A stretch of 63,794 nt of DNA, taken from IMG/VR virus record IMGVR_UViG_3300048061_000324, positions 1 through 63,794 of that record, one strand, 5' to 3'. The stretch comes from a virus. Under the pieces are notes generated by a model, which saw only the letters and a program-made list of their open reading frames with translations, had not been told where the DNA came from and ran no database searches. Below are positions 1-52,318 of the stretch, piece by piece; within the stretch, counting starts at the first letter, position 1; the number at the start of each line of letters is the position of its first letter. A program made the position numbers and the translations under genes.

Positions 1-321
1 ATGATTCTTTTTATCAAAGGTAAATTGTTTATTAAGAGCACCTCTGGTAGTCCATGTACTACTGCGATCACCAAACATTCCTTGTCCGGCATATAGTTCT
101 CTAGTCTTTTTTAACCAAGGTGTTTCATAAAACCCAATAGCATCAAACTTTCCGTATCCTTCTTGATATGATAATGCTTGTTTAATTATTGGTTCACATA
201 AATCTTTATCGTGTTTCTTTTTACTATATCTTTCACTATGTCCAGCAAAAACAATTTCACCATCTTCTACGACAGCCAATCCTGCGTCATGAAATCCTGC
301 ACTTACTCCTAGTGTTAACAT
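1..321 (-). CDS. Carbamoyltransferase, NodU/TobZ family (N-terminal part only)
   Basis: Only the first 107 codons are present; the ATG is at 321 and the gene leaves the window on the left. The translation opens LTLGVSAGFHDAGLAVVEDG, followed by GHSERYSKKKHD. This is the ASKHA-fold start of NodU/CmcH/TobZ O-carbamoyltransferases, which use carbamoyl phosphate and ATP to carbamoylate a hydroxyl on a sugar or similar acceptor. The stop of the upstream amidinotransferase shares one base with this start (TAATG), so the two are probably co-translated. The C-terminal acceptor domain is outside the window, so the substrate is unknown. A sugar acceptor is inferred from the neighbours; a DNA-base acceptor is an alternative. 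Confidence 0.8.
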   Translation of the reverse strand, partial: MLTLGVSAGFHDAGLAVVEDGEIVFAGHSERYSKKKHDKDLCEPIIKQALSYQEGYGKFDAIGFYETPWLKKTRELYAGQGMFGDRSSTWTTRGALNKQFTFDKKNH

Positions 322-1325
322 TATGCTCTTCTCTCCAAGTCTAACGTGGCACAGTGATGACCTCCTCCTAGTGTACGACTATGTGTTAGTTGTACAGGAA
401 TAACTTCAAACTTTGCACGTTCTAATTTCTTAATTAACTTTGGTTGTCTAGGATCGACAACAACTGTTTTAGGATCAATGCTTAACACATTCATTCCAAT
501 CCAATTACTAGCATATGGATATTTGTGAAACTCCATATCCTCTACACTGTCAACCCAAATGCGTTTATGCTTCTTTAAAAACTTTGGTAACTGCGACGGC
601 TTAACTCTTTGTTTGTTAATTAAAAGAGTTGATTCGTTAAGTGCCGCGATAGTACTATCAATATGAGCATATGCATAAACGTCTTCCCATATATGAACTG
701 TATACTTGGAACCAAGTACTGTACTTAACCATTGAGCACCTGCGGCATTACCTGTTTGACTTTTTAAGTATAACAAGTCATTACCAAAACGCATTACGTT
801 AGCCGCATCAAAGATTGGAGTCTTCTCTGTAAGTTTACCATCTTCAAATACTTCGTGTACTGGTAGTGCGTGTCTTGGTGCACTAATCCACTTAACACCT
901 GACTTCATTGCTTCGTGTCTAATGTCACGGTATGCTTCTGTTTCATGAAACCTACTATGAAACAATACTGGTGTTTCAATTACAACGTTTCCTATTACAA
1001 GGATAACATCACGTGGGCAATAATTATAAAAGCCATCTGCAAAGTATCTGTATCCATGTACAGTTTGTTGAAAGTCTAATTGTCTTGGACGTAAAACTTC
1101 AACACCTAAATCTGTTAATACTTTTTCAAACTGTCGTAGTTCATGATCTGTTAGGTCTATTATATCTTTATTAATTGGTCCAACTGGCTGTGCAGTTTCA
1201 GTCCACTTGCTATGTTTAGCAACTTCATTAAAAACATCATCATACTTTGGAAACCTTGCTCCGTGAACATCTCCTAGTACAACCTTCTTTAATGGATCCC
1301 ATTCGTTATGTGATTCAATAATCAT
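321..1325 (-). CDS. Glycine/inosamine-type amidinotransferase
   Basis: A 334-residue protein of the arginine:glycine amidinotransferase (AGAT)/StrB1 family, which moves the amidino group of arginine to an amine to give a guanidino product. The catalytic triad can be placed: Asp173 in IFDAANVMRFG, His221 in HIDST and Cys325 in GGGHHCATLD, each in its AGAT/StrB1 context. A PRD motif lies near residues 104-106. Length is close to the family's usual 340-390. It starts just inside the end of the DegT aminotransferase gene (4-base overlap) and runs into the carbamoyltransferase. Family assignment is firm. Whether the acceptor is glycine or an aminated sugar/cyclitol is inference; the neighbours favour the sugar. 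Confidence 0.88.
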   Translation of the reverse strand: MIIESHNEWDPLKKVVLGDVHGARFPKYDDVFNEVAKHSKWTETAQPVGPINKDIIDLTDHELRQFEKVLTDLGVEVLRPRQLDFQQTVHGYRYFADGFYNYCPRDVILVIGNVVIETPVLFHSRFHETEAYRDIRHEAMKSGVKWISAPRHALPVHEVFEDGKLTEKTPIFDAANVMRFGNDLLYLKSQTGNAAGAQWLSTVLGSKYTVHIWEDVYAYAHIDSTIAALNESTLLINKQRVKPSQLPKFLKKHKRIWVDSVEDMEFHKYPYASNWIGMNVLSIDPKTVVVDPRQPKLIKKLERAKFEVIPVQLTHSRTLGGGHHCATLDLERRA

Positions 1326-2020
1326 TTGTAACTTCCCATTTTAAAACATTTTGTAATACTTGGATACTTCACGTGTTGTGGTGTTTTCTCTTTGTATTGA
1401 TCTAATTTAACTATACCAACTGCTGATTGCTCAGGGGACAAATAATAATGATATCCAACTTCTTCATACTGTTCCTTATCCCAGGGAGACACTTTTAGAT
1501 CTCTGCCATCGTACCTGGCACGAATAATCCAATCATATGCTTCTCTACTATCTAATAGTATAGCACCTCCTTTACCGATTGTCAATGGTTTTCCATTACC
1601 AAAACTCAAGCATTTAAAGGTTTCTTGTTCATACATATTGCGTTGTAATCTTCTAGCACTATCGTATATAGGCAAGTGTCCTAGTTTGTATTCACCTATC
1701 CATTTGTCTTCGTTAATAACAAATGATAAACCCAAACGTTCAAGCATCATAGGTATACTTAAATATGTTTGGTCTGGTATTTCAATATGAGGGATATGAC
1801 TTGGGTGTTTTCTTTTATACCATCTTATGCACAATTCGATTGCGTGTGTACAACAATCAGTTGTTACTACATATGGTGCTCCAGTATAATCAGCAAGACG
1901 TTTTTCAAATTCTCTTATAACATCATACGGATCATTCCAACCAACACCATAATCTTTTAACATCTCTAGGATGTCAAGATTAATAATGTCCTGTAATTTG
2001 TAAGGTGTATCTTGGTTCAT
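1322..2020 (-). CDS. Short DegT/DnrJ/StrS-family PLP aminotransferase
   Basis: A 232-residue PLP-dependent protein of the DegT/DnrJ/EryC1/StrS sugar aminotransferase family. Visible landmarks are TTDCCTHAIEL near residues 53-63 (cofactor-phosphate region), Asp120 in YDSARRL, and LSFGNGKPLTIGKGGAIL near 138-154 with Lys144 as the likely Schiff-base lysine. The usual family length is 360-400, so the C-terminal domain is largely missing; this may be a compact phage form. Its start overlaps the upstream 2OG oxygenase by 41 bases; a later in-frame Met (residue 20) would remove most of that overlap. Expected role: amination of a keto-sugar, giving the amine the neighbouring amidinotransferase needs. 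Confidence 0.78.
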   Translation of the reverse strand: MNQDTPYKLQDIINLDILEMLKDYGVGWNDPYDVIREFEKRLADYTGAPYVVTTDCCTHAIELCIRWYKRKHPSHIPHIEIPDQTYLSIPMMLERLGLSFVINEDKWIGEYKLGHLPIYDSARRLQRNMYEQETFKCLSFGNGKPLTIGKGGAILLDSREAYDWIIRARYDGRDLKVSPWDKEQYEEVGYHYYLSPEQSAVGIVKLDQYKEKTPQHVKYPSITKCFKMGSYK

Positions 2021-2504
2021 AACCTATATTGCCTGCACTGTGTGGAACTCTTCCACGCCAAAGCACGGCTCCTCCTTTGTGCCAATTCATACTATATTGG
2101 TCTACTTCAAACATATGTCCTTGTTTTTTATCTTCTAAAAATACTAAACAACGTAACACATCATCACTACTTTCGATATGAAAGAGTTCTTTATATTTGT
2201 TATAGTGATCTGCGTGTGGTGGTAGTATGTCACCTGTTGTCATTTTATAGAATGTATAACCGCAGTCTTTCCATTCTAAAATTTTTCCAATGTCTTTTGC
2301 CCATTGTGGAATTGCTGACTGATCATTAAACATCATACCAGTAAAGTTATCATGCGTATGTCCAGCAGTTCTCCATTTTGCTAATTGCTCTAAGTCTCCG
2401 TAAGCAACTCGTTTATAATCAAAACTTTCAAAGTCTTTTGTTTCCCATACAGGATCAAGTTCCAGTGTATGATATTCTAAAGGACTAATCTCTTGTGTTG
2501 CCAT
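1980..2504 (-). CDS. 2OG-Fe(II) oxygenase, aspartyl/prolyl-hydroxylase-like
   Basis: A 174-residue protein with the facial triad and 2-oxoglutarate arginine of the cupin-fold dioxygenases: His97 and Asp99 in PPHADHY, His155 in RVPHSAGN and Arg165 in EPRYTLQITGH. The family couples oxidative decarboxylation of 2-oxoglutarate to hydroxylation of a protein, sugar or small molecule. It overlaps the dehydrogenase upstream by 20 bases and the aminotransferase downstream by 41, so it belongs to the same operon. The substrate cannot be told from sequence. A sugar-modifying role is inferred from context. Confidence 0.75.
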   Translation of the reverse strand: MATQEISPLEYHTLELDPVWETKDFESFDYKRVAYGDLEQLAKWRTAGHTHDNFTGMMFNDQSAIPQWAKDIGKILEWKDCGYTFYKMTTGDILPPHADHYNKYKELFHIESSDDVLRCLVFLEDKKQGHMFEVDQYSMNWHKGGAVLWRGRVPHSAGNIGYEPRYTLQITGHY

Positions 2505-3633
2505 AATGTATTACTTTCACTTTTGGATCTTTGGCTGTGTATGTACGCCATGGATCGAAAACTATTGTTGCACTGTCGACATTAAAGTTATGGTCAGTTG
2601 GGTGAGTTATAACCATAACTTCAACTGCATGGTCGAAACCATTAACAATCATTCCACCCAACTTTCCAATATAGTGTTGAACTAGTAATGCATAAGATCC
2701 ATCAGTGTATGCTACTCCTGGCTTATATGTATCACTCGTAAAGCAAATTTGCTTTCCATGTTTTAATATTTCTTTTGCCATACGTTCGGCTTGTACTTCC
2801 CTACTTTTGGCAATCGCGTCGAACAAGTCATATCCTAAGTCTAATCGTTCCGCTAAATGTCTTAGGGCAATATTATCTCTAGGGTGACAAGGTCCACCAT
2901 CGCCCATGCCTGCTTTCATATAAGCGGCACTGGTAATTCGGTATCCTGCATTACTTAAACTATTTGTTACAACATCAACATTCATATTCCCAACACTTTG
3001 GGCAACGTCTTGAATCATATTAACTAGACTTAACCTTGCACTAATAAATGTGTTGTAAAATATTTTTGTTGCTTCTGCTTCTTCCCATGTACCAATATTA
3101 TAATGCGGATCATTCTCCATTACTGTTTTGTAAAATTTTACTAATGCTTTTGCATCAGTGTCGTTTGGTTTGTTGCCTCCAATGATAACCATATCTGGAT
3201 TTACCATATCCCAAGCAACTGTACCCATAGCAATTAAGTATGGGTTATAAATTAATCTTGCTTTATCTAATAAGCCTGCGAATTCTCTTCTTGTTGTTCC
3301 TGGAAGTACTGTACTAATTAAAACAACAATAGTATCTTCTGTTGCATATTTGTTAATTTCTTTTAAACATTCTTTAACAGGATCTAATCCAAAGTCTTTG
3401 TTTGGTAAATGTGTTATAGGAGTTTCTCCACCATAGTCTTTATGGTGTGGAGTTTGTACTGCAACAAAGACAAAGTCCTGTCCTACTACTGCTTCTTTTG
3501 GTGTCTTAGACACTCGTACAAGCCCACTAAAGCGTTCTACCTTGTCATACCCTGTAACTGTATGTCCTTTCTTAACTAACATCTCAGAACTAATCATTCC
3601 AAGTTTTCCTAAACCAAACCAACCTATTTTCAT
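2485..3633 (-). CDS. UDP/GDP-sugar 6-dehydrogenase family
   Basis: A 382-residue nucleotide-sugar dehydrogenase of the Ugd/WecC/WbpA type, which oxidises C6 of a nucleotide sugar to a uronic acid with two NAD+. The N-terminal Rossmann motif is GWFGLGKLG (residues 4-12). The middle domain carries EATKIFYN (about 187-194). The nucleophile is Cys249 in GGPCHPRDN, a variant of the usual GGxCxPKD. Family members are usually 390-440 residues, so this one is slightly short at the C terminus. It overlaps its upstream neighbour by 4 bases. With the DegT aminotransferase it recalls amino-uronic acid routes such as WbpA/WbpE; the exact sugar is unknown. Confidence 0.85.
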   Translation of the reverse strand: MKIGWFGLGKLGMISSEMLVKKGHTVTGYDKVERFSGLVRVSKTPKEAVVGQDFVFVAVQTPHHKDYGGETPITHLPNKDFGLDPVKECLKEINKYATEDTIVVLISTVLPGTTRREFAGLLDKARLIYNPYLIAMGTVAWDMVNPDMVIIGGNKPNDTDAKALVKFYKTVMENDPHYNIGTWEEAEATKIFYNTFISARLSLVNMIQDVAQSVGNMNVDVVTNSLSNAGYRITSAAYMKAGMGDGGPCHPRDNIALRHLAERLDLGYDLFDAIAKSREVQAERMAKEILKHGKQICFTSDTYKPGVAYTDGSYALLVQHYIGKLGGMIVNGFDHAVEVMVITHPTDHNFNVDSATIVFDPWRTYTAKDPKVKVIHYGNTRD

Positions 3634-4835
3634 AATTCTAATACCTTTGTAATATGTTTTCTAATCTCACCTGTCCTAATTAAGTTACGATTGTGTATAA
3701 GGATTGGTTCCATATGTTTCTTTATTCTTTTTAATTCTCTATATGATTGATTACTGATGTCAATAATAATATCAAATACTTTATCCATTCTTTTAATGGG
3801 ATCAGTTTCTTCATCATAACTTTCATCCCAGAACTCGTGGAATGTTTTTGCTCCCCAATGTTTCAACAAGTCTAAACTATGTGTACCTGCTAATAATAAT
3901 ACAGGTGAGCCTTGCTTCATAGGGTTTAATGTTTTTTCACTTATTTGTCCCCAAGGGTATTCGTAGTTTGTTTCACATACTAAACTAGCAAACGAGTTCC
4001 AATAAGTATCTTCCAACGGATCAGAAGTAGTAATATTATTTATGGTTCCTACTTGAGGGTTTATATAATCTTTCATGCTTACTATTTGACATTCAGTATC
4101 TTCTTTTGTTAATGGCAAATGAGCCATAAGGTCTTTACAACCTTTGCTATAAGATTCAAAATGTTTACTGTTGTTTAATGGAAATTTTAAAAGTACATCA
4201 TCTGTTTTATGATAATGTGTAATAACACTGTCCTCTGGCATTATGTTATATAAGAAACTAACAGCCATATGTCTATGCTGATCCCAGCGATATGTGAAAC
4301 AGTTTATTTTATGATTAATTTCTTCTGGTAGACCATTGCTAGGTTCTCTGTTATAATGACAAGCGCCTAAACTAAAAGTGTCTAATGGGTATATTGCCCA
4401 GTCGGAATACTTTGTGTTTTGTAATTGTTCTAACATACGATACTCATTTGTAAATATTTTAAACTTACAGTTGTGCTTTTTACACCAGTTTTGTATCATA
4501 TCGAATTCATTGATGCTACAATCTTCTTGTATTAACCCGTCTGGGCAACTATACCTGGAGTGATTTTGCCATACTGATAATACTTCGTACAAAAAGAAAT
4601 ATACTGTCGTATGGTCTACAAAGTTAATACTTGAATCTGACCAAGATTCGAACCATTCACACGGACCGTCAAATATAAAATAAGGGGTTTTGATTTCTAA
4701 ACTTTGGAGTGATTCTGCTGTTTTTCGAAATCTTCCACGTGTGTCACTAAATTTAGTGATGGTTGACGTTGCATCAACTACAGAGTGGTTTATTGCTTTG
4801 TTAATGTTATTTATGTAAATTGAATTAAATTGCAT
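3630..4835 (-). CDS. Glycosyltransferase-like protein, fucosyltransferase-type C-terminal motif
   Basis: A 401-residue soluble protein without a recognised N-terminal domain. Around residues 285-330 it contains LVCETNYEYPWGQISEKTLN followed by PMKQGSPVLLLAGTHSL. The pattern of a Glu, then SEKT, then a pocket of small residues is the donor-binding signature of GT10-like and related GT-B folds. This supports a glycosyltransferase, probably using a product of the surrounding sugar genes, but it is one motif only. It sits between the radical SAM gene (11-base overlap) and the dehydrogenase (4-base overlap). Confidence 0.5.
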   Translation of the reverse strand: MQFNSIYINNINKAINHSVVDATSTITKFSDTRGRFRKTAESLQSLEIKTPYFIFDGPCEWFESWSDSSINFVDHTTVYFFLYEVLSVWQNHSRYSCPDGLIQEDCSINEFDMIQNWCKKHNCKFKIFTNEYRMLEQLQNTKYSDWAIYPLDTFSLGACHYNREPSNGLPEEINHKINCFTYRWDQHRHMAVSFLYNIMPEDSVITHYHKTDDVLLKFPLNNSKHFESYSKGCKDLMAHLPLTKEDTECQIVSMKDYINPQVGTINNITTSDPLEDTYWNSFASLVCETNYEYPWGQISEKTLNPMKQGSPVLLLAGTHSLDLLKHWGAKTFHEFWDESYDEETDPIKRMDKVFDIIIDISNQSYRELKRIKKHMEPILIHNRNLIRTGEIRKHITKVLEL

Positions 4836-6183
4836 CGAACCAAGCCATATATTCGGGAAAAACTTCGCTAAAAATGGTACTTCTACGTTTATCGAGCTCT
4901 TTAGTATATACTTTAAAGTTCTGCTTATGATTATTACTATCTACTGTTTGTTGACTTCTCCAGTATTCAATAATACGTTCTAGTTTAGCAGTTTCACTAT
5001 TGTGCATTAACTCTACAATTTCCATCTGTTTCATATACTCAACTGTATTAGTCATGTATTCTTCAAATGTTTTATCTAGTATTTTAACATCCATCATCTC
5101 AGGATATCTTAAAAAAGGTATGTCAATGTACATACAATCTCTACCGTATTGTTTTCTTATTTCAACTAAATCTTTTAGAAAGTCTTTGAATGATGTTACA
5201 CTTAATGCATTGTAGGTACACATGAATGTAACTACAAACCTGTCTTCATTTTTAAATTCTTCTAATACACGTTTTACATTTTTTATAAACTTGTTATAAT
5301 CTAAACCATTTCTAATATACTCTGCTTTATTACCAAATGCTTCTGCACTTGTGTAAACTTCTAGTTTACGAACTTTGCCACTTGCTAATACTTTCTTTGC
5401 TTGATTAATAAACTTATCGAATAGTTTGTCCTCAACACAAAAGTTACTATTAATACCTAACAATAAATCTTTATTTGGTTTATCTGTTTCAATGATCCAG
5501 TCCATCATTTTAAATGTGTTCTTATTCATAAGTGGCTCGCCACCTGTAACACGGAACGTATGCAATGCTGGGTACAACTCAGGCCACCATTCCCAAAATG
5601 CTTCTACATATGGATTGTGTTCTCTTTCCGGTATAGGCATTCTGCCTCTGCGTTCTGTCCATGTTATGTCGTTGTAATTGTCTGAGGTGCTAAAGCCTCC
5701 ATGTTGTTTTACTTCTTGCATCCACGCACTACTGATAGCCGGACTGCAATACATACATTTAAAATTACAAGCATAACCAAAACTTACTTCTACATAACTT
5801 GGTTGAAAGTTTGTACTCCAATCATTATTTTTAATTGTATCAAAGTGTTTGTTACTCCAACTAAATGCACTCTTTAAATGTCTGTCACTTAAAGCATTTG
5901 GATCTGCATCTTCAACTCTCCAACAGTAGTCACATTCTTTAGGTCTACCACCTTCGAGCATTTCTTTACGTTGTTGTTTTTTATATATAGAGTTGTGTAG
6001 TGAACTAGGGTCTAGTTTAATTTCGTCAACTGGTACTTGGTGTACCGGTGGGTGATGACAACTATGTGCAGTTCCATTTTGTAAGTTAAGTGTAAGTTGT
6101 GTCCACTTTGCTAAACAGAATCCAGGACCTACTGCATTCAGTTTGGCTTTCATTTCATGCGGATCTGTTCCGGTAAAACTCAT
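4825..6183 (-). CDS. Radical SAM protein, twitch-domain type
   Basis: A 452-residue radical SAM enzyme. The [4Fe-4S]-binding CxxxCxxC is Cys139-Cys143-Cys146 in FGYACNFKCMYCSPAIS, and the SAM-contacting GGEP motif appears as VTGGEPLMNKNT near residue 213. Extra Cys residues before the core (42, 84, 87) may hold a second cluster or zinc. Phage members of this family are usually called twitch-domain radical SAM proteins; no substrate is established. Placed between a phosphomannomutase-like gene and a glycosyltransferase-like gene, it could perform a radical step on a sugar or a peptide. That is inference. Confidence 0.85.
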   Translation of the reverse strand: MSFTGTDPHEMKAKLNAVGPGFCLAKWTQLTLNLQNGTAHSCHHPPVHQVPVDEIKLDPSSLHNSIYKKQQRKEMLEGGRPKECDYCWRVEDADPNALSDRHLKSAFSWSNKHFDTIKNNDWSTNFQPSYVEVSFGYACNFKCMYCSPAISSAWMQEVKQHGGFSTSDNYNDITWTERRGRMPIPEREHNPYVEAFWEWWPELYPALHTFRVTGGEPLMNKNTFKMMDWIIETDKPNKDLLLGINSNFCVEDKLFDKFINQAKKVLASGKVRKLEVYTSAEAFGNKAEYIRNGLDYNKFIKNVKRVLEEFKNEDRFVVTFMCTYNALSVTSFKDFLKDLVEIRKQYGRDCMYIDIPFLRYPEMMDVKILDKTFEEYMTNTVEYMKQMEIVELMHNSETAKLERIIEYWRSQQTVDSNNHKQNFKVYTKELDKRRSTIFSEVFPEYMAWFDAI

Positions 6184-6887
6184 TACGAATAATCTTCTTT
6201 AAGTATATCCCAAGTATCATAAGGCCCTTTGACTTGATGCCATTTATCTCCAGGGTTTGTCATTTTGTCTGCTAATGGTTTATCGTTTCCATTAACATGA
6301 ATTCTGTCTCCAAAGAATATCATTGGTGTCCCAATAATATCATATACTTGTGCTTTGTTCTTTCCTTTTAGATGAATATCTATACTAGTGTTACCACCTA
6401 GTTCTGCTTCAAATCCTGGAAAAGTTTCGTTAAACATTTCACAAATACTAACACGTTCATTATTTACTTTGTCCCATTCATAATAATCATCACGTTGTTG
6501 CCCTACGGCATTTCTTCCTACAGTACTAAAGTTTATTAACCCTGTACGTTTTTCAATATGAAGTCCATACTTGTGTTTATATTTACTGAAGTCTACTTGT
6601 TGTTCTAACCATGTGTCCATATCTTCTGGAGCATTAAGGTTACTACTCGAAACTTCAATACCATTACGCCATACACTGTTACCTGCACATTGAAATACCA
6701 TTGTACAGTTGTCTACGATCTCGTGTCCTATTTGTTCTATTGTTTTAGGTCTATCACTACCTGTAACAATAAAGACACTTTTGTTTTTCATCCAGTTTAA
6801 GAACCAGAGTCTAAAGTCAACAGGAATTACTTGCCTACTTTCAGACAAGGTTCCATCTACGTCAAATACATAATTTACACGGTCCAA
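6183..6887 (-). CDS. Phosphomannomutase-like HAD-superfamily enzyme (TTG start)
   Basis: A 234-residue protein resembling eukaryotic-type phosphomannomutase (PMM): the HAD nucleophile motif FDVDGTL (Asp9, Asp11), a cap segment STVGRNAVGQQRDDYYEWDK, then LGGNTSIDIHLKGKNKAQV and FFGDRIHVNGNDKPLA, matching the PMM GR..s...R..F.e.Dk and FFGD...GGND blocks in order. Expected chemistry is 1,6-phosphomutase or phosphatase action on a hexose phosphate. No ATG or GTG fits the frame. A TTG at 6887 is used, about a dozen bases after AAGGAG, and an in-frame stop lies 33 bases upstream of it. The start lies inside the end of the 53-codon gene. Confidence 0.8.
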   Translation of the reverse strand: MDRVNYVFDVDGTLSESRQVIPVDFRLWFLNWMKNKSVFIVTGSDRPKTIEQIGHEIVDNCTMVFQCAGNSVWRNGIEVSSSNLNAPEDMDTWLEQQVDFSKYKHKYGLHIEKRTGLINFSTVGRNAVGQQRDDYYEWDKVNNERVSICEMFNETFPGFEAELGGNTSIDIHLKGKNKAQVYDIIGTPMIFFGDRIHVNGNDKPLADKMTNPGDKWHQVKGPYDTWDILKEDYS

Positions 6888-7036
6888 CTTTTCAACTGCT
6901 CCTTTGTTGGTTTCATTGGTTCAAGTTTTTCTATCTTGCCACCCTTCTCTAAAAACTTTTTCATTCGTTCATCTAGTTTTCTTTGAAGTTCAGCAGGTTC
7001 TGGTTTTGTATAATCTTTTTGTTTATTATCTATCAT
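6875..7036 (-). CDS. Small basic hypothetical protein, 53 aa
   Basis: A 53-codon ORF begins with ATG at 7036, overlapping the stop of the RuBisCO-like gene (ATGA), and ends inside the start of the phosphomannomutase-like gene. The product is lysine-rich and predicted to be mostly helical (MIDNKQKDYTKPEPAELQRK, then LDERMKKFLEKGG). No family is recognised. The 4-base overlap and the AAGGAG near its end, which serves the next gene, indicate it is translated. It may simply couple translation of its neighbours. Confidence 0.55.
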   Translation of the reverse strand: MIDNKQKDYTKPEPAELQRKLDERMKKFLEKGGKIEKLEPMKPTKEQLKSWTV

Positions 7037-8169
7037 TGTGTTACACTGTCTATTGCTTTTCTTAATTTTAATGCTCCGGCTTTCATACCGTCTGGGTGTT
7101 CGTGAATTGCTCCACCAACATTTGCCATATAGTCAACACCGAAGCGTCTTGTTATTTCTGGAATAAGTTCTGCTGTCATACCACAACTTAAAGCAGGCAC
7201 TACATTGTTGTTACTTAACATATGCATTGTGCTTCGAAGTTCATTTTCATCATCACTTAGATATCCGCCCCACATACCTGTATGGATTGTATCTACTCCA
7301 CAGATACTTGCTAACTTACATAACACATACCAACTAATACGATATGCATTCTTTGTACTGCTTATTACTTTGTCGCCTGACTTCTGATAATGTATATACA
7401 AAGGTAAGTTTAATTTGTTAATACTTTTATAAGATCCGTGTCCACTCCAGAAGTTAACGTGTACTCCATTACCTCCGCCATCTGCAACCATTTTGGCTCT
7501 ATCTAGCAAGTGCAAAGGATCACTATTAATACAATAGCAATACACAACGTTTGTTCCTGCTAACACCCGCTGTATGACGTCTATGCGAGTCTTAAGGGGT
7601 AAACAAGCCGGGTTTGCCATTATCTCATCTTCTTTAATAAAGTCAACTCCGCCTTCTACGAATGCAGTAACAATTTCAACTAATGCTTGTTCTGTTAGTC
7701 CTGTCTTAGGTTTAACAATACTACCTAGTAATGGTTTGTTATAATTGCCTGTAAGTTTTCTAAATCCTGATAATCCGTAACGTGGTGCAACTGCATCACA
7801 TAATGAAAAATCGATATCTAAATCTAATAGTTCACATCTGTGAATATAATCGATGTCCATTTGTCCACCCATTAACACACAAAGTAATTGTGCTATTCCA
7901 TCAGTTTCCCAGTCAATAATTCTATAGGGCCAAGCAATTTTAACTATGCCTGTGTTCTTTCCTATAAAGTCTGCTGGCTGTCCAATAATCTTTGCTGAGT
8001 ATTGTTCAATCAACTCTGGTGTTTCATATTCATTTCTTACACTAGGGTTACCTACACTTTGCCCGACTGCTAATCCAAATGCCGCCTTGTTTAAGTCGTT
8101 ACCTTCTAGTTTGTATGTTACTGTAAAGTATTCCTTGGGATCTACTTCACTCACGTATATATCAAGCAT
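7033..8169 (-). CDS. RuBisCO-like protein (form IV type)
   Basis: A 378-residue homologue of the RuBisCO large subunit. The C-terminal barrel is clear: PLLGSIVKPKTGLT (Lys153/Lys155, matching the catalytic KPK), GGVDFIKEDE with Lys179, Asp181 and Glu182 matching the carbamylated lysine and two Mg2+ ligands, His260, DTIHTG with His296, SCGM near 328, and VGGAIHEHPDG near 351-361 at the phosphate-binding site. Loop 6 reads GMWGGYLSDD and has no lysine at the position of Lys334, which CO2 fixation requires. It should therefore be a form IV enolase/isomerase-like protein, not a carboxylase. At 378 residues it is shorter than the usual 410-470. Neighbours are a cupin and sugar genes. The substrate is unknown. 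Confidence 0.88.
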   Translation of the reverse strand: MLDIYVSEVDPKEYFTVTYKLEGNDLNKAAFGLAVGQSVGNPSVRNEYETPELIEQYSAKIIGQPADFIGKNTGIVKIAWPYRIIDWETDGIAQLLCVLMGGQMDIDYIHRCELLDLDIDFSLCDAVAPRYGLSGFRKLTGNYNKPLLGSIVKPKTGLTEQALVEIVTAFVEGGVDFIKEDEIMANPACLPLKTRIDVIQRVLAGTNVVYCYCINSDPLHLLDRAKMVADGGGNGVHVNFWSGHGSYKSINKLNLPLYIHYQKSGDKVISSTKNAYRISWYVLCKLASICGVDTIHTGMWGGYLSDDENELRSTMHMLSNNNVVPALSCGMTAELIPEITRRFGVDYMANVGGAIHEHPDGMKAGALKLRKAIDSVTQ

Positions 8170-8186
8170 AATGTATTGTACCTTCT

Positions 8187-8516
8187 TTATTCTTTAATGT
8201 CAAACATATATTTGTCATCTGTGTCACAAATATCTCTAACTACTGTTAATTCTACATCGGTTAAGTATTCAACTTGACTAACTTCATATGGGTATAATAT
8301 AAAAATGTCGCCTTCGCTAAATATTTGTCCGTTAATTTTTACTTTTCCTTTTCGCATACAGTTGATCTCTGTACCTTTTTTATGAAAGTGATCCTGATGG
8401 AATTCACCTTTTTTGTGTCTGTGAATACCAACTTCAAAGTTTGCCTTAAAAGCCGTAGGTTCAAAGTTACCTACAAACCATCCACCTTTCATATCATCTA
8501 ATTTAAATTTCTTCAT
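8187..8516 (-). CDS. Single-domain cupin
   Basis: A 109-residue small beta-barrel protein. Cupin motif 1 is HFHKKGTEINCMRKGK, with His43, His45 and Glu50 as likely metal ligands, followed by GQIFSEGDIFILYPYEVSQV as motif 2. Small cupins of this kind are often sugar isomerases/epimerases or metal-dependent dioxygenases. It overlaps the preceding gene by 4 bases and is followed after 17 bases by the RuBisCO-like gene, so the two are probably made together. The motif-2 histidine is not obvious. A binding or isomerase role is inference. Confidence 0.75.
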   Translation of the reverse strand: MKKFKLDDMKGGWFVGNFEPTAFKANFEVGIHRHKKGEFHQDHFHKKGTEINCMRKGKVKINGQIFSEGDIFILYPYEVSQVEYLTDVELTVVRDICDTDDKYMFDIKE

Positions 8517-8797
8517 TTATGTTCCTCTAACAAGTTATATTCATATAACTCTTTTGGTGTATTAACTATAAGCATATCAGGATCGTGTACATCCATAAAC
8601 TTAACTTCGTTAACGTAAACTTTACACATATCAGTTAGTTCAGGATAGTCTAATATTAATTCATTATCTAATATTACAGTATCAAAGTTTCCTACTTCAA
8701 GTGTTCTTTGTAAAACACTTCTGCCATTACAGGCAACAACTGCGATTGGGTAATCCCAACCTATCCACTTATCGTTTGATACAGATAGTTTGCCCAT
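8513..8797 (-). CDS. Hypothetical protein, 94 aa
   Basis: An unrecognised 94-residue protein with alternating hydrophobic strands (YPIAVVACNGRSVLQRTL, FDTVILDNELIL, PDMLIVNTPKELYEY), compatible with a small alpha/beta fold. A GAAGGA sequence about 8 bases before the ATG supports the start, although that start lies 37 bases inside the end of the SGNH gene upstream. Its stop overlaps the cupin start by 4 bases. No function is proposed. Confidence 0.55.
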   Translation of the reverse strand: MGKLSVSNDKWIGWDYPIAVVACNGRSVLQRTLEVGNFDTVILDNELILDYPELTDMCKVYVNEVKFMDVHDPDMLIVNTPKELYEYNLLEEHK

Positions 8798-9456
8798 CCT
8801 TTATGTCCTTCATCTAATGTGTGTCCACCTGTGCCACAGGGCCAGCCTTGACTTTTTGTCATGTCAATAAAACTTGGCATAATGTAATTAACATCTTTAA
8901 GCCATTCGCTGTCTGGTTCGTCAAGTGCAAACGTTTGTATTAATTTTACTTTTAAACTTTTTGCAATTTGTTGTAAGTTCCACATACGTTCAAACTGCAT
9001 TTGTTTTCTACTTTCAGTTCCTAGTGTTGTTGTATACAGTTTATGCATTTTATTAATTGTGTCAACTAACATAGGATCTAAATTCATTTCATCGTTACCT
9101 GGTATATGTCCTGGTATGTTATAACATACATTATGATAAGGTATATACTTTGCACCTTGCCAATCCACTGGTAACTCATCACGTTCAAACGTTGTCCAAC
9201 AAACAACAACAAGTAATTCTGCACCTGGATGTTTATTACACCATTCACGCATAAAACGTATTGTGCGTCTTGCTATTCTGTTCCCACTTGTTCCACGCAT
9301 TGCTTCATTTACAACTGCTGGTATACTTAACTTATCTGCAAGTAGTTTGGGCCAACTGTTACGCAATCTGTATGTAGGTGTGTCATCATTATAAGGTAAT
9401 CCTAATTCATCACCTTCGGTCCAACTATCACCATTTGCATACAAACATTTAATCAT
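8761..9456 (-). CDS. SGNH-hydrolase-like protein (copy 1)
   Basis: A 231-residue GDSL/SGNH-type protein. Block I is YANGDSWTEG (nucleophile Ser in GDS), an Asn-containing block is GTSGNRIARR, and a C-terminal Asp...His block is TLDEGHKGWA. I chose ATG 9456 because it forms a 4-base ATGA overlap with the nucleotidyltransferase stop and aligns with the starts of the paralogues at 11062 and 12712; an in-frame ATG at 9468 would add four residues. SGNH enzymes deacylate or transfer acyl groups on sugars, glycans or lipids. Here the likely target is a glycan linked to the cassette's sugar. Confidence 0.72.
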   Translation of the reverse strand: MIKCLYANGDSWTEGDELGLPYNDDTPTYRLRNSWPKLLADKLSIPAVVNEAMRGTSGNRIARRTIRFMREWCNKHPGAELLVVVCWTTFERDELPVDWQGAKYIPYHNVCYNIPGHIPGNDEMNLDPMLVDTINKMHKLYTTTLGTESRKQMQFERMWNLQQIAKSLKVKLIQTFALDEPDSEWLKDVNYIMPSFIDMTKSQGWPCGTGGHTLDEGHKGWANYLYQTISG

Positions 9457-10175
9457 CCACGCCACCATTTGTTATGATAGTTAGATAAATCTTCTGGAGT
9501 ACCAACCGGGCTAAAGTTCTTTGCTTCTACCTCATACGGTTTAACAATATTATTTTTAAGTGTGTAATTATACACTGGTGCTAGATAAAATTCGTTATTA
9601 TGTCTATCATTGTTTTCAATCATTTGTTCAGCACCTTCAACAAATAAACTTCCTTTGCTCCAATGGTATAAACCAACAGTAGCCATATTACTAATTGCGA
9701 CTTTCTCTGCCGCTTCTGTTATGTGCCCGTCGTCATTAATCTTAACAAAACTATGTTTATTATGATTATGTGGGTAGGTCATTACCCAACTCACGTGGGG
9801 CTCAAGTTTACATTTTTCTAAAAACATTTCGCTATCCCAATGTAACACTTGATCACTGTTAATACTAATTAAAGGTTCATCGTTGTTTATAAATTCTTTT
9901 GCTTTTAATAAACTACAAGCGGCACCTTCTGTAAGATGATCTAATACAACAATATTAACATTGTCTGCAAAACTTTCTAAATGTTCTCTGAGCCATGGAT
10001 AATCAACAAGATGTTCTTGTTGGACTACGAATGTATAGTTACCAGCAATACCTAAACTATCAACAGCACTTTGTATCATTGTAGTGCCGCCAACTCTTAC
10101 TAGAGGTTTAGGAACAGTGTATCCTGCATCTTTGAATCTACTGCCGGCTCCTGCCATTCCAATTATAATATTCAT
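9453..10175 (-). CDS. Sugar-1-phosphate nucleotidyltransferase
   Basis: A 240-residue NTP_transferase-fold protein. The N terminus IIIGMAGAGSRFKDAGYTVPKP is a phage-style variant of the GxGxR...PKP nucleotide-binding signature, with the PKP lysine at residue 23. LISINSDQVLHWD near 103-115 carries the metal-binding aspartate, and LTEGAACSLL matches the segment that reads the base or sugar. Expected role: making an NDP-sugar from sugar-1-phosphate, downstream of the phosphomannomutase-like enzyme. It overlaps the SGNH gene that follows by 4 bases. Confidence 0.78.
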   Translation of the reverse strand: MNIIIGMAGAGSRFKDAGYTVPKPLVRVGGTTMIQSAVDSLGIAGNYTFVVQQEHLVDYPWLREHLESFADNVNIVVLDHLTEGAACSLLKAKEFINNDEPLISINSDQVLHWDSEMFLEKCKLEPHVSWVMTYPHNHNKHSFVKINDDGHITEAAEKVAISNMATVGLYHWSKGSLFVEGAEQMIENNDRHNNEFYLAPVYNYTLKNNIVKPYEVEAKNFSPVGTPEDLSNYHNKWWRG

Positions 10176-10324: not shown

Positions 10325-11062
10325 TTACTGTTGCAAGTGAGCAACAATAGTTTTTGCTAATTTTATATGTCCTAATTCATTAGGGTGTCTTCCGGGAGCC
10401 CTTACGTCTTCAAGGTGTTCGTATTCCATTAATTGTCTATTGAAACTAATGGGATATGGGGATATTGCATCCAACCATTTATTATTTGCTTCAGGTCTAC
10501 CTACTACAAATTCAGGATTGTCTAACGCATATACTTGTAATAAGTTAATTCCTAAGTTATCACAGGCTTGCTTTAACAACCATTGTAAGTTAAAGAACTT
10601 ATAACTATTTACCTTACTACTGTTCAGCATAGTACGAATCTTATGATATTCTGGAAGTAGTCTATCTAAATCCTTATCATTTGTTTTATTTAAATGGGGA
10701 TTGTTTAATAGCATACTAATATACTCATTGTCAATTGATTCCCATTCTGTATATCCATTATTGTGTTTTCGTTTGACACTAACTGGCGCCTCTATTCTTT
10801 CGTATGTTGTCCAGGCAACTATTACTTGTAATTCATTTGGATTACCTTTATAGTTTCTAATGTAATCTATTGTTTTACGAAATATTCGATCATTACTGCC
10901 GCCACCTAATCCTTCATTAACTAGTTGAGGTATCTTTAATTGCCTAGCAACGTGCCAGGGCCATGACTTATAAAATTTATAATCCAGCTCGTCAATAGTA
11001 CCATCTTTAAGTTCTTGCCCAAACGTCCAACTATCTCCATTAACATATAAAGTTTTAATCAT
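10325..11062 (-). CDS. SGNH-hydrolase-like protein (copy 2)
   Basis: A 245-residue paralogue of the 9456 and 12712 genes. Block I is YVNGDSWTFGQEL, the Asn block is GGGSNDRIFRKT, and the C-terminal block is HPNELGHIKLAK with the catalytic-type Asn/His pair. The start is placed at ATG 11062, one base beyond the upstream stop (TAA-T-ATG), because it aligns with the other copies. An upstream in-frame ATG at 11083 is possible; GTGGGATC about 10 bases before 11062 could serve as ribosome site. Function as for copy 1. Confidence 0.72.
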   Translation of the reverse strand: MIKTLYVNGDSWTFGQELKDGTIDELDYKFYKSWPWHVARQLKIPQLVNEGLGGGSNDRIFRKTIDYIRNYKGNPNELQVIVAWTTYERIEAPVSVKRKHNNGYTEWESIDNEYISMLLNNPHLNKTNDKDLDRLLPEYHKIRTMLNSSKVNSYKFFNLQWLLKQACDNLGINLLQVYALDNPEFVVGRPEANNKWLDAISPYPISFNRQLMEYEHLEDVRAPGRHPNELGHIKLAKTIVAHLQQ

Positions 11063-11063
11063 A

Positions 11064-11852
11064 TTAGTGATCCCACTGTGCATCTACTTTAGGTTTAATA
11101 ATTTCAAACACTTGTCTATGTCCTTCGTAGTCACAATGTCCTGTATTCCTTTTGTCAGGGTACTCTCTACTAAAATATCCCCAATCAACATTTGCATAAT
11201 TTACTTCAGGTAGCAGTCTTTCAAAGTCTGGCTGGTGTCCCATAAAAATGTGTGGTATATTATTTGTTTTCATCAGCAAGTGTGCTGATGTTAAAATACC
11301 AATGTCATACTCATTTTTAATATCAAATGAGAAAAAGTCTGCTACCCAATTCTGTAATACTCTTAAACGTGCATCTGGTTCGTGTCTTTCAAACTGTGCC
11401 CAATGTGCCTTAACATCTCTATCAAAAAAACTATCTAAATTTTGTAGTGTTTCACTTTGCATACTATTATCAGTTGTAACTGGAATAGGTCTTCGAAACT
11501 CTGCTGGTGTGTATCTGTCATATGGTGGATAGTCTTCATAATTTAAATGTTCGATTGTTGGTTCTGTTCCCATAGGTTTATCTTGCCCAGGTTTAAACCA
11601 AACAGTTCTTGCCGCATTTGTCATGCTAATAATAACAAAAGGTTTATAATTACCTACTGTCATTCTTTCAACTGCGTGTTTAACTTGCAACCAAATAGTG
11701 AAGTTACAACACCCACTTCTACCAATTACTTTTTGTTCCACACCTTTGTATTCGGCAGTAAGTCCACCAAAACTTTTTTCAAAACAATCATGGTCAGGTA
11801 GTCCACTACCATTACTAAAACTATCACCGCACGTTATAATTAAATTTCGCAT
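11064..11852 (-). CDS. SGNH-hydrolase-like protein, divergent (copy 3)
   Basis: A 262-residue protein starting LIITCGDSFSNGSGLPDHDC, a GDS block I, and ending in GHCDYEGHRQVFE, a block V-like Asp/His segment. The middle is diverged from the other copies, including VIISMTNAARTVWF where they have a VIVAWTTYER-type strand. Active-site serine and histidine candidates are still present. It overlaps its upstream paralogue by 13 bases. Acyl-ester hydrolase or transferase on a glycan is the family-level guess. Confidence 0.62.
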   Translation of the reverse strand: MRNLIITCGDSFSNGSGLPDHDCFEKSFGGLTAEYKGVEQKVIGRSGCCNFTIWLQVKHAVERMTVGNYKPFVIISMTNAARTVWFKPGQDKPMGTEPTIEHLNYEDYPPYDRYTPAEFRRPIPVTTDNSMQSETLQNLDSFFDRDVKAHWAQFERHEPDARLRVLQNWVADFFSFDIKNEYDIGILTSAHLLMKTNNIPHIFMGHQPDFERLLPEVNYANVDWGYFSREYPDKRNTGHCDYEGHRQVFEIIKPKVDAQWDH

Positions 11853-12712
11853 ATGTTATTTTCTCTAATATATCTGTTAAGTTCTCTTGCCCAAAGCATA
11901 TGTCCGTATTTGTTTGGATGCATACCCGAAATAACTTTTGTATTATATTCAGTGTCATCTTGATTTGTAATATATCCATGAAAACTATGTGGTGCTTCTG
12001 TTTTACCATAGAATCTTTTACTGTCTACTTGTTCCCATAACCAACCATCGTTTTGTCCGTTGTAATGAAAGTTCCAACGTGGATCAGCATTACCTACCGT
12101 CATCTTTTCTGTTTCACTGTTAACGTAATTTTTATCTTGCCATTGCGATATCTGTGTTTCATCTACATTATAAAATGCTTGAAAGAACAAGTAGTTAATC
12201 TTATGTACTTTAAAAAAGTTTTCTAATTGTAGTACTTGTTGTACATATCGATTAACATACTCTTCTTTATTCCATAAGTACATTCTGTAGTTATCAAAGA
12301 AGGGTTGCATACCTCTTTGCATATACGGATGGTTAGTTTGATTGGGCCATATAGTAGTCCAGCCAGAGCCGTTACGTTCGTCTACAGGATCCTTATAGTA
12401 AAAGTCCTTACGTTCAGGACTAGTTAAGCCAACTATGACAAACAAATTGTTTTCACAGTCTATATCAGGCTTAATATAATTTTCAGTAATCCAACTTAAT
12501 GTTGTTCTTACAATTCTATCATTACTTGCGGCAGGATAAGATATGTTTGTTAAGTCATCTGCTTTAATCATATCCTTTAACATAGTGGGCCAAATTTTAG
12601 GAATGCGATATGCATTGTTCTCTGGATCCCAATCACTTACAGTGTCTGGTAAAGCAGGATCTCTAATCTCACTGCCAAATGTCCAACTATCTCCTGTTGT
12701 TAATAAGTGCAT
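11840..12712 (-). CDS. SGNH-hydrolase-like protein (copy 4)
   Basis: A 290-residue paralogue. Block I is LLTTGDSWTFGSEIRD, the Asn block is PAASNDRIVRTT, a strand reads FVIVGLTSPERKDFY, and the end is GMHPNKYGHMLWARELN with the His in block V. It shares one base with the preceding glycosyltransferase-like gene. It is the longest of the four copies because of an insertion near residues 200-240. Confidence 0.7.
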   Translation of the reverse strand: MHLLTTGDSWTFGSEIRDPALPDTVSDWDPENNAYRIPKIWPTMLKDMIKADDLTNISYPAASNDRIVRTTLSWITENYIKPDIDCENNLFVIVGLTSPERKDFYYKDPVDERNGSGWTTIWPNQTNHPYMQRGMQPFFDNYRMYLWNKEEYVNRYVQQVLQLENFFKVHKINYLFFQAFYNVDETQISQWQDKNYVNSETEKMTVGNADPRWNFHYNGQNDGWLWEQVDSKRFYGKTEAPHSFHGYITNQDDTEYNTKVISGMHPNKYGHMLWARELNRYIRENNICEI

Positions 12713-14197: not shown

Positions 14198-14440
14198 TTA
14201 AAACCAGTTCCAAACTCCACGTATTGCTAAACACAAATACATAAGTTCCATTAGTGCTCTGGGTATATCTTTATCTTTGTAACCCATGTATACCCAAATA
14301 CTACAACTGAATAATGCAACTGCCCACCCTAGCCACTGTAGTTCTTCGTTACCACTTGATAATATAAATGCACTTATCATTGCTAGGATAAAACCTAACC
14401 ATCTAAATCCATCCAGTTTTTCGTAAAAGCGAATTTTCAT
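14198..14440 (-). CDS. Small membrane protein with three predicted helices
   Basis: An 80-residue protein with three hydrophobic stretches at about residues 14-30 (WLGFILAMISAFILSSG), 35-53 (LQWLGWAVALFSCSIWVYMG) and 60-80. Short polar loops contain KDKD. It looks like a small inner-membrane protein; the size and three-helix layout recall SemiSWEET/PQ-loop-type proteins, but no motif confirms this. It overlaps the phosphodiesterase-like gene by 38 bases. Confidence 0.6.
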   Translation of the reverse strand: MKIRFYEKLDGFRWLGFILAMISAFILSSGNEELQWLGWAVALFSCSIWVYMGYKDKDIPRALMELMYLCLAIRGVWNWF

Positions 14441-14858
14441 AATTGCTTACCCAATCTGAGCAAATACCAAAGCAACCTTCAGGGACGGTATCTTTCTCAT
14501 TTTGCAAACATATAACACTTTTAGATGTTACTTGTTTGTAAGGGTATGTCCAAATATACCCTTTACTTGTTAATGTTCTTTCATCTTGTTCATGCCAAAA
14601 GCAATGTATGTAATTAAATAACATAAATTCTAATGCTTCTAAATTTTTTGCATGATTCCAAAATGCATTGTTGCTTATAAAATTTTGTGTAACAGGGTAT
14701 GTAGGTTTGTCGTGTCCTAGCCATAACCTTTCATTAACAAACCACACATCAACTTCGCAGTCAAAACCTTTGTCAACTGCGTTAAGTAAATACTCAGGAT
14801 CGTTTTCCCTCTCAGGTTTTGGACCTGCTGTATTTCCTCTATGTGCGATTAGTTTCAT
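14403..14858 (-). CDS. Short glycerophosphodiester phosphodiesterase-like protein
   Basis: A 151-residue protein with the active-site start of the GDPD family: LIAHRGN (His6, Arg7), EVDVWF (Glu35, Asp37) and LWLGHDKPTY (His49), i.e. the HRG...ExD...H metal and acid/base set in correct order. Typical GDPD proteins have 240-300 residues and a full TIM barrel; only about half is present, so it is either a reduced enzyme or a binding protein. Possible roles are phospholipid head-group turnover or sugar phosphodiester cleavage. It overlaps both neighbours. Confidence 0.65.
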   Translation of the reverse strand: MKLIAHRGNTAGPKPERENDPEYLLNAVDKGFDCEVDVWFVNERLWLGHDKPTYPVTQNFISNNAFWNHAKNLEALEFMLFNYIHCFWHEQDERTLTSKGYIWTYPYKQVTSKSVICLQNEKDTVPEGCFGICSDWVSNYENSLLRKTGWI

Positions 14859-24078: not shown

Positions 24079-24086
24079 TATTTATT
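24079..24086 (-). promoter_or_regulatory. T4-type late promoter
   Basis: AATAAATA then AACATATAAG on the minus strand, 31-38 bases before the start of the 744-residue fibre gene. It overlaps the stop codon of the 4177-residue gene. 7 of 8 matches to TATAAATA. Confidence 0.52.
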
Positions 24087-50962: not shown

Positions 50963-52318
50963 ATGATTTCTATTACAAGATTATCTAATAATTTTGAAAT
51001 AGTTGATCTTATTACTGATACCCAGTTAGACAAAACAAAGTTAATGCGTTTTGCTTCTGGGTATCAGCAACTGTTCCGTAAACATAATCTAAAAAAAGGT
51101 GACAGAATTGGCCTTGCTCTGCAAGAAGACTTCCATCATCTTGCCTGTGTCTTCGCGGCAATTGATTATGGACTTATAATTGTTATAAGTGGTGAACATG
51201 AAATAACAGACAAATATATTTCTAGAAGACAAATAAAAGCATTTATATCACGGGGTGTACAACCTTGTACAGTTCATGCAACTAATGTTAATCATATTGA
51301 ATTAACAGAAGACGTTACTGAATCAAACAAAGATTACATTATCGATCATTCTGATATTTTAGTAGAAGCATTAACAAGTGGTAGTACTGGAGAACCTAAG
51401 TGTATTCAACATACACATTTTAGTGTAGAAAGTGCAACAGAAAATAGCATAAAACATTATTGGAAAGAAGCAGACACTAGTTGGTTTTTCCATAACATTG
51501 TACATTTAGGTGTAAGCAGTGTTTACTTTTTTCCTGCATTGTTTTCTAGTAAAAGAATTATTTTACCTCCGTTAGATAATCCATATGATGAAGTATTACT
51601 GTCTAAGTATAAACCAGACATAATGTTAATATTTCCATCACATTACCAAGAGTATTCTAAACAAGGAATACATTTAAGAGATTTAAGTCACGTTAAGTGG
51701 GTACTAACAGGCGGAAGTGTAATAGACCGTTCTTTTATTAGACGCATGATAAAAAATCAAGGCGTAGAAAAAGTTGCAGTAATATATGGACTTACTGAAT
51801 GTTTACCACCTTTAATACATAAAGTTGTTGACAAAGAAAATTTAGACTCGTATAATGTTAAAGAGATGGGTTACATCATCGACAGTACAGGAACATACGA
51901 TATTAACAAAGATGAAATACTTACAATTAAAGGTAGTAATCATTTATGTAAAAGTATAAACGACAAACCTGTAGATACATTTATTACTCAAGATGTTGTA
52001 AGTGCAGGTAGTGATTCATTTTTCTTTGAAAAACGTAATAGCGATTTAATAAGAATAAATGATACATTAATAAATCCACAACAACTAGTACCAAATTGGT
52101 TAGATGGTTATTGTTGTGTCTTTAGTACTTCACAGACACACGTTGTAGTGGTTATGCATCACAAAAAAGTAAATGTAAAAGAGTTGATTCAGAAATTAAC
52201 CGTTAACGGAATCAACCATGATAAATTAATTACGCCGATAAAACTTAATGTTCTCGGCAAACCAGATATCAATAAATTAAAGGGAATCTATGATAGGGCA
52301 AATAAGGGCACATCTTAA
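50963..52318 (+). CDS. AMP-dependent synthetase/ligase (ANL superfamily)
   Basis: A 451-residue adenylate-forming enzyme. The ATP-binding P-loop is ALTSGSTGEPK (residues ~136-146), the A5-type motif is IYGLTE (274-279), a degenerate Asp block appears as TQDVVSAGSDSFFFEKRNSD, and the C-terminal lysine motif is VLGKPDIN with Lys433, so the catalytic half-reaction residues look intact. The family activates carboxylic acids as acyl-AMP for transfer to CoA or a carrier thiol. Typical lengths are 500-600; the C-terminal domain here is compact. No carrier protein is visible nearby. Substrate unknown; unusual cargo for a T4-like core replication region. Confidence 0.85.
   Translation: MISITRLSNNFEIVDLITDTQLDKTKLMRFASGYQQLFRKHNLKKGDRIGLALQEDFHHLACVFAAIDYGLIIVISGEHEITDKYISRRQIKAFISRGVQPCTVHATNVNHIELTEDVTESNKDYIIDHSDILVEALTSGSTGEPKCIQHTHFSVESATENSIKHYWKEADTSWFFHNIVHLGVSSVYFFPALFSSKRIILPPLDNPYDEVLLSKYKPDIMLIFPSHYQEYSKQGIHLRDLSHVKWVLTGGSVIDRSFIRRMIKNQGVEKVAVIYGLTECLPPLIHKVVDKENLDSYNVKEMGYIIDSTGTYDINKDEILTIKGSNHLCKSINDKPVDTFITQDVVSAGSDSFFFEKRNSDLIRINDTLINPQQLVPNWLDGYCCVFSTSQTHVVVVMHHKKVNVKELIQKLTVNGINHDKLITPIKLNVLGKPDINKLKGIYDRANKGTS

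Follow-up and report, generated by a model that had tools for sequence, protein, structure and literature searches.

Introduction

RuBisCO-like proteins (RLPs) are a classic family, many members of which are without a function. The 2007 Global Ocean Sampling survey describes RuBisCO homologues that cluster with no known form (PMC1821046). The described proteins closest to those treated here are the form IV RLPs MtnW, Rhodospirillum rubrum 5-methylthioribulose-1-phosphate isomerase and OiaX, form III RuBisCO, the L-arginine:scyllo-inosamine-4-phosphate amidinotransferase StrB1 (1bwd), and the O-carbamoyltransferases NodU, TobZ, GdmN and NovN. Homologues of all these groups are encoded in one operon at positions 1-10175 of IMG/VR virus record IMGVR_UViG_3300048061_000324. 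The window analyzed here is this entire virus record, 63,794 nucleotides (63.8 kb) long. The operon holds thirteen open reading frames (ORFs), all on the minus strand, and neighboring ORFs mostly overlap or abut by a few bases. It is a composite, apparently joined from two sets of genes, each shared by many other viruses. The first, termed the RLP module, comprises the RLP, a cupin, a HAD protein of the phosphomannomutase (PMM) family, a nucleotidyltransferase and a GDPD-like protein. The second, termed the guanidino module, comprises the protein unk401, a UDP-glucose/GDP-mannose dehydrogenase-type enzyme (UGD), a 2-oxoglutarate (2OG) oxygenase, a short DegT-type aminotransferase (mini-DegT), a StrB1-like amidinotransferase and a carbamoyltransferase. 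With a probability of roughly 0.5, we read the operon as a surface-sugar operon of a jumbo T4-like phage in which two viral sugar-nucleotide modules were combined and which would make a guanidino/carbamoyl surface sugar.

Searches of open-licence PMC text gave no publication that treats viral RLPs, none that treats a viral cassette of amidinotransferase and aminotransferase, and none for Synechococcus phage S-SCSM2; in the part of PMC11360552 available to us, amidinotransferase appears in the reference list only. An initial annotation, generated by a model from the letters and translations, had named nine enzymes in a co-directional operon at 1-10175 and proposed an aminocyclitol-antibiotic-like sugar cassette. 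All nine were recovered by family matches. The same gene run also holds unk401, the cupin, a 94-residue protein (u94) and an SGNH/DUF6071 protein, none of which had been named, nor had the GDPD-like gene at 14403-14858.

Two Gene Sets Meet in One Viral Lineage

The viral contig collection was queried separately with the RLP, mini-DegT and amidinotransferase, and the neighbors of the matches were then scored. The RLP set was the best 80 of the 182 viral matches nearest the query plus one, giving 81 distinct contigs (7 from the window's lineage and 74 outside it). The amidinotransferase set was the best 80 of 295 matches, giving 79 distinct loci (16 from the lineage and 63 outside it), and the mini-DegT set was the best 80 of at least 576, giving 70 loci outside the lineage with near-copies included. 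Contig ends truncate the locus flanks, so that a partner scored as absent yields only a lower bound.

Outside the lineage, a nucleotidyltransferase lay near the RLP in all 74 contigs, a GDPD-like gene in 62 and a cupin in 52. The PMM-like HAD was present in 4 of the 74, mini-DegT and UGD were each present in 2, and the amidinotransferase and 2OG oxygenase in none. Grouping at 80% identity left 33 RLP groups, with the nucleotidyltransferase, cupin and GDPD-like gene within 5 kb in 33, 27 and 25 of them, respectively. Around the amidinotransferase, the 63 loci outside the lineage held the 2OG oxygenase (44), unk401 (39), mini-DegT (35), UGD (31), radical SAM (23) and carbamoyltransferase (15), together with the nucleotidyltransferase in 2 and the RLP or cupin in none. 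Among 35 amidinotransferase groups at 80% identity, unk401, 2OG oxygenase, UGD, DegT, carbamoyltransferase and RLP occurred within 5 kb in 27, 25, 20, 16, 5 and 0, respectively. The 70 mini-DegT loci outside the lineage included 26 with the amidinotransferase, 20 with the 2OG oxygenase and none with the RLP. The genes of each module are thus rare or absent around the other, and since each set serves as the control of the other, the pairing reflects more than the general content of viral glycan islands. The linkage within each module exceeds chance, and among the loci examined the two modules meet only in the window's lineage. Partial overlap was seen in L017, L018 and L044, which hold the RLP, HAD, radical SAM and carbamoyltransferase without the amidinotransferase.

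The nine originally named genes as a single pathway were rejected because the RLP and amidinotransferase never co-occur outside the lineage in the loci examined. The recurring linkage that the initial annotation had expected in related phages was found for the amidinotransferase with the 2OG oxygenase, mini-DegT and UGD. The proposed set of aminotransferase, amidinotransferase and carbamoyltransferase fared unevenly: the three genes are adjacent in the window and mini-DegT is a frequent partner elsewhere, but the carbamoyltransferase is a minority one.

The Predicted Guanidino Module

The amidinotransferase (321-1325, 334 aa) matched StrB1 (1bwd) best among solved proteins at 279 bits, followed by HsvA (170 bits), SxtG (162 bits) and AGAT (154 bits); closeness to StrB1 was judged by bit score, not by a tree. 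Two divergent viral amidinotransferases also matched StrB1 best, at 219 and 286 bits. Residues D173, H221 and C325 were invariant in 35 of 35 viral sequences and align with D179, H227 and C332 of StrB1, which we take to be the catalytic triad of the pentein fold. StrB1 and the window protein are alike in these positions and differ in setting: the partners of the latter are a UGD and a 2OG oxygenase, and a cyclitol-forming enzyme was found in none of 8 related virus records. A second amidinotransferase-family gene lies near the first in some viral loci (L233, L217 and L223).

Next to it, mini-DegT (1322-2020, 232 aa; PF01041, 2.7e-17) lacks the usual C-terminal domain. Its listed relatives span 197-243 aa, short of the full large and small domains (about 360-400 aa) of DegT/StrS proteins. 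K144 and D120, presumably the pyridoxal phosphate lysine and the pyridine-binding Asp, were kept in 21 of 21 aligned sequences, and the predicted structure (pLDDT 81) matched 1b9h in Foldseek at 3.7e-9. The family is large in its own right, as viral contigs hold no fewer than 576 relatives, and 44 of the 70 loci outside the lineage have no amidinotransferase nearby.

The 2OG-Fe(II) oxygenase of Asp/Arg hydroxylase type (1980-2504, 174 aa) matched PF05118 below the cut-off (E 5e-4), and despite this the HxD...H triad of H97, D99 and H155 was present in 27 of 27 relatives. The UGD (2485-3633, 382 aa) scored over the cut-offs of PF03721 and PF00984, matched phrog_9148 at 1.6e-81 and retained C249 in 17 of 17 aligned sequences. 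The initial annotation had expected catalytic residues to persist in close homologues, and they are intact in all four of these enzymes. Adjoining the UGD, unk401 (3630-4835) had no family match in Pfam, PHROGs or NCBIfam; two relatives gave the same result, and a third matched only through a fused UGD part. In L268, a relative of unk401 joined to a UGD stands next to DegT and amidinotransferase genes. We take unk401 to be a probable glycosyltransferase from a sequence motif only.

The carbamoyltransferase of NodU/TobZ type (1-321, PF02543) is truncated by the window edge to its N-terminal 107 aa. Beyond this left edge, lineage relatives carry the full gene of 501-508 aa with both carbamoyltransferase domains, followed by radical SAM genes, an additional cupin and a cytidylyltransferase-like gene. 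A full 504-aa copy in viral locus L010 matched PF02543 (6e-40) and PF16861 (2e-52), the two domains shared by NodU, TobZ, GdmN and NovN. Against the PDB, this copy scored best with 9s2t (178 bits) versus 137 bits with TobZ; the best match of the carbamoyltransferase is thus decarbamoylnovobiocin carbamoyltransferase, not TobZ.

A cultured cyanophage, Synechococcus phage S-SCSM2R (PQ898602), resembles the window in carrying mini-DegT, radical SAM, one or more glycosyltransferases, 2OG oxygenase and amidinotransferase within 4 kb. Identity to the window proteins is 37% for mini-DegT, 26% for the 2OG oxygenase and 36% for a protein annotated as 'inosamine amidinotransferase'. Unlike the window, S-SCSM2R gave no RLP, nucleotidyltransferase or UGD match in the 18.6 kb examined, and its carbamoyltransferase lies elsewhere (26.5%). 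Since S-SCSM2R is in culture and carries the core of the guanidino module, experiments on that core in a laboratory host are feasible.

The RLP Module

The RLP (7033-8169, 378 aa) matched PF00016 at 4.5e-34 and scored under every NCBIfam equivalog cut-off. Like the form IV RLPs and form III RuBisCO, it has the carbamylatable-lysine and metal motif. K179, D181 and E182 of this motif, together with K153 and K155, were invariant in 42 of 42 viral sequences; one further translated match (L024, 10001-11101) holds an in-frame stop and was excluded from this alignment. In what we take to be spinach numbering of the active site, K175, K201, D203 and E204 are retained. A profile alignment to 2cwx, read by eye, places G36, N41, P42, Q262, K263 and Y303 at spinach E60, T65, W66, H294, R295 and K334, respectively. 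A CO2-fixing RuBisCO of forms I-III was rejected on the replacement of E60, H294, R295 and K334. With these residues replaced, carboxylation is not expected, and enolization or isomerization is. The window-type RLP differs from forms III and IV in these positions and in T65, and also in having a nucleotidyltransferase as constant partner.

No RLP match was found in a search of 50,697 phage records. Cellular relatives came from 32 loci, including SAR11, Legionella, Azospirillum, Elusimicrobia and DPANN. In several SAR11 loci, a GDPD-like gene and either one or two nucleotidyltransferases accompany the RLP, three Legionella loci pair it with a nucleotidyltransferase (in L. nautarum a LicD gene adjoins), and Elusimicrobia and DPANN hold parts of the module. 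In the RLP tree, where some long branches (L107 and L108) are unreliable, 8 cellular RLPs fall into a single group with the viral ones (98/96), next to a group of 14 that are all cellular. As this clade is common in viral contigs and nearly always stands beside a sugar nucleotidyltransferase, its function is directly testable, and the module offers this widespread orphan clade a pathway that experiments can address.

The partner nucleotidyltransferase (9453-10175), a sugar-1-phosphate type, matched PF00483 at 2.5e-12, and its best PDB profile match was 4evw (1.6e-37). Cultured cyanophages without an RLP carry the same nucleotidyltransferase, 32-48% identical, fused to RpiB (SynMITS9220M01), RibB (S-SKS1) or HAD (S-CAM9), and SynMITS9220M01 and Bellamy share with the window a cupin and a GDPD-like gene in the same block. 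RpiB and RibB use ribulose-5-phosphate. The fusion of the nucleotidyltransferase to enzymes of this substrate therefore makes a pentulose phosphate, by analogy, the likely input of the RLP module. Several cyanophage genes annotated as 'phosphatase' or 'DHBP synthase' are such fusions (L128, 4492-5649; L129, 6992-8149; L130, 5001-6428): the first is an RpiB fusion by Pfam, the second presumably one from the same annotation, length and synteny, and the third a RibB fusion.

The HAD (6183-6887, motif FDVDGTL) belongs to the eukaryotic PMM family (PF03332, 74 bits versus a cut-off of 22.4) and may be a phosphomutase or a phosphatase. The small cupin (8187-8516, 109 aa) matched phrog_24762 at 1.5e-32 and shows H43xH45...E50 in the cupin alignment. 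An RLP isomerase and a cupin of R. rubrum are reported to act successively on methylthio-pentulose phosphates, a precedent for the RLP/cupin pair (PMC4958253). The short GDPD-like protein (14403-14858, minus strand, 151 aa) is an RLP-module partner outside 1-10175. Residues H6, R7, E35, D37 and H49 are invariant in its alignment, and its profile matched GDPD 7e0v (6.5e-5, 52 positions). Its predicted model (pLDDT 94) had no Foldseek match at E ≤ 0.001, the best being 2pz0 at 0.046.

Proposed Pathway

The simplest chemistry for the guanidino module would be nucleotide-sugar oxidation, amination, amidination and sometimes carbamoylation. The UGD-type enzyme would oxidize C6 of a nucleotide sugar and the 2OG oxygenase would oxidize a further position. 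Mini-DegT could then place an amine on the keto carbon, and the amidinotransferase could transfer the amidino group of arginine to that amine, yielding a guanidino sugar. In some viruses the carbamoyltransferase would cap a hydroxyl, and glycosyltransferases would attach the sugar to a host or virion glycan. For the RLP module, we propose that the RLP would enolize or isomerize a pentulose-phosphate-like substrate without fixing CO2, that the HAD would move or remove the phosphate, and that the nucleotidyltransferase would activate the product of these steps. From the guanidino module, one would expect guanidino sugars on the surface of the phage or of the infected cell, where they could alter charge, receptor recognition or superinfection. 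A guanidino/carbamoyl amino-uronic sugar, as the initial annotation had also suggested, is the best reading because the aminotransferase, amidinotransferase, UGD and, less often, carbamoyltransferase travel together with intact active sites. The part of that annotation that did not stand is the aminocyclitol label, and it had overlooked that the RLP, nucleotidyltransferase and cupin form, with the GDPD-like gene, a second independent module. More tentatively, and at less than even odds, the large viral RLP clade with its relatives in SAR11, Legionella and DPANN might make the skeleton in an as yet undescribed route from a pentulose phosphate to a nucleotide-activated surface sugar. In one jumbo-phage lineage this route would be joined to the guanidino module, and the resulting surface sugar would be positively charged and unusual in two respects.

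Several points weigh against the surface-sugar reading. We infer the substrates and products of all steps, their order, what the cupin, radical SAM protein and GDPD-like protein do, and where the sugar ends up. The carbamoyltransferase accompanies the amidinotransferase in a minority of loci (15/63). Within 5 kb, mini-DegT is present in only 16 of 35 amidinotransferase groups, so that the amine could have another origin, and some loci (L223 and L224) have a full-size DegT. Mini-DegT, judged from its missing C-terminal domain, could be inactive alone, and the 2OG oxygenase may hydroxylate instead of making a ketone. The pentulose link is an analogy, since no RLP was found in the phages that carry the RpiB and RibB fusions. 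The GDPD-like protein may not be a phosphodiesterase, given the lack of a Foldseek match at E ≤ 0.001. Finally, the viral RLPs compared are the best 80 of the 182 nearest the query.

Alternative Explanations

One unlikely alternative is that the amidinotransferase genes belong to an auxiliary metabolic set for arginine or guanidino metabolism, making a creatine-like solute or scavenging nitrogen, without a glycan role. Searches of two SAR11 genomes (G001 and G002) did give amidinotransferase-family genes, with about 35% identity over the C-terminal half. However, the StrB1 score far exceeds that of AGAT, and 2OG oxygenase, UGD and unk401 each neighbor the amidinotransferase in roughly half of its loci or more.

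Methionine or methylthioadenosine (MTA) salvage by the RLP module is likewise improbable. Here the RLP, HAD and cupin would act as MtnW, MtnX and MtnD, or as the RLP isomerase and cupin sulfurylase of R. rubrum. The R. rubrum study reports that Rru_A1998 (RLP isomerase) and Rru_A2000 (cupin) act on methylthio-pentulose phosphates; RpiB and DHBP synthase likewise appear in its table of the MTA response (PMC4958253). Yet the sugar-1-phosphate-type nucleotidyltransferase present in every RLP contig outside the lineage would be needless for salvage, and the HAD by the RLP, a PMM-like protein, occurs in few of those contigs. Two NCBIfam models for MtnW, the 2,3-diketo-5-methylthiopentyl-1-phosphate enolase, gave 127.3 bits versus a cut-off of 409 and 103.7 bits versus 513.6.

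We consider modification of a peptide or virion protein quite unlikely. The twitch-domain radical SAM protein (4825-6183, motif CNFKCMYC; NF033640, 326 bits versus a cut-off of 170) and the PF05118-like oxygenase in the operon would suit action with the amidinotransferase on side chains, and the amidinotransferase of Campylobacter phage CP220 sits among radical SAM genes. UGD and mini-DegT are, however, of sugar-type families, and no precursor-peptide gene was noticed, though no systematic search was made.

A true aminocyclitol pathway, in which an inositol ring would carry the guanidino or carbamoyl group as it does in streptomycin or bluensomycin, is very unlikely. It would fit StrB1, an inosamine-phosphate amidinotransferase, as best solved match and the adjacency of DegT, amidinotransferase and TobZ-type carbamoyltransferase. 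Against it, the cyclitol-forming families PF01658 (inositol-1-phosphate synthase) and PF01761 (dehydroquinate-synthase type, presumably the family of 2-deoxy-scyllo-inosose synthase) gave no match in any of 8 related virus records, each of which may be a fragment and have a host that could supply the inositol ring; of 14 genomes used as controls, 6 and 11 gave matches, respectively. A nucleotide-sugar dehydrogenase as common partner is also what a nucleotide sugar would lead one to expect. Hypermodification of phage DNA, which the initial annotation had raised and for which phages that make unusual bases are a known precedent, is highly improbable, as the operon lies beside tail-fiber-region and glycosyltransferase-like genes and no base-modifying gene was noticed in the window's ORF translations, which were read by eye with no dedicated search and cover a fragment.

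Phage Affiliation and Neighboring Genes

The window derives from a jumbo T4-like phage of the large marine type with a bacterial host. Its capsid protein is nearest those of the jumbo T4-like phages Sinorhizobium phage Phosso, Vibrio phage 2.275.O and PA5oct (61-64% identity), and one relative contig measures 306.7 kb. Within the operon, u94 (8513-8797, 94 aa) is a protein without assigned function that occurs in 10 loci, all within the lineage, and the SGNH-like protein (8761-9468) matched DUF6071 (PF19547, 3.7e-11). Three DUF6071/SGNH-like paralogues surround the nucleotidyltransferase on the minus strand (8761-9468, 10325-11083 and 11840-12712), and a fourth SGNH-like protein, named from its sequence alone, also flanks it (11064-11852, minus strand). 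A single ORF of 4177 aa (24082-36615, minus strand) adjoins the tail-fiber-region genes. An AMP-binding enzyme of acyl-CoA synthetase type (50963-52318, plus strand; PF00501, E 1.2e-26) stands alone, with recombination genes on one side and head genes on the other.

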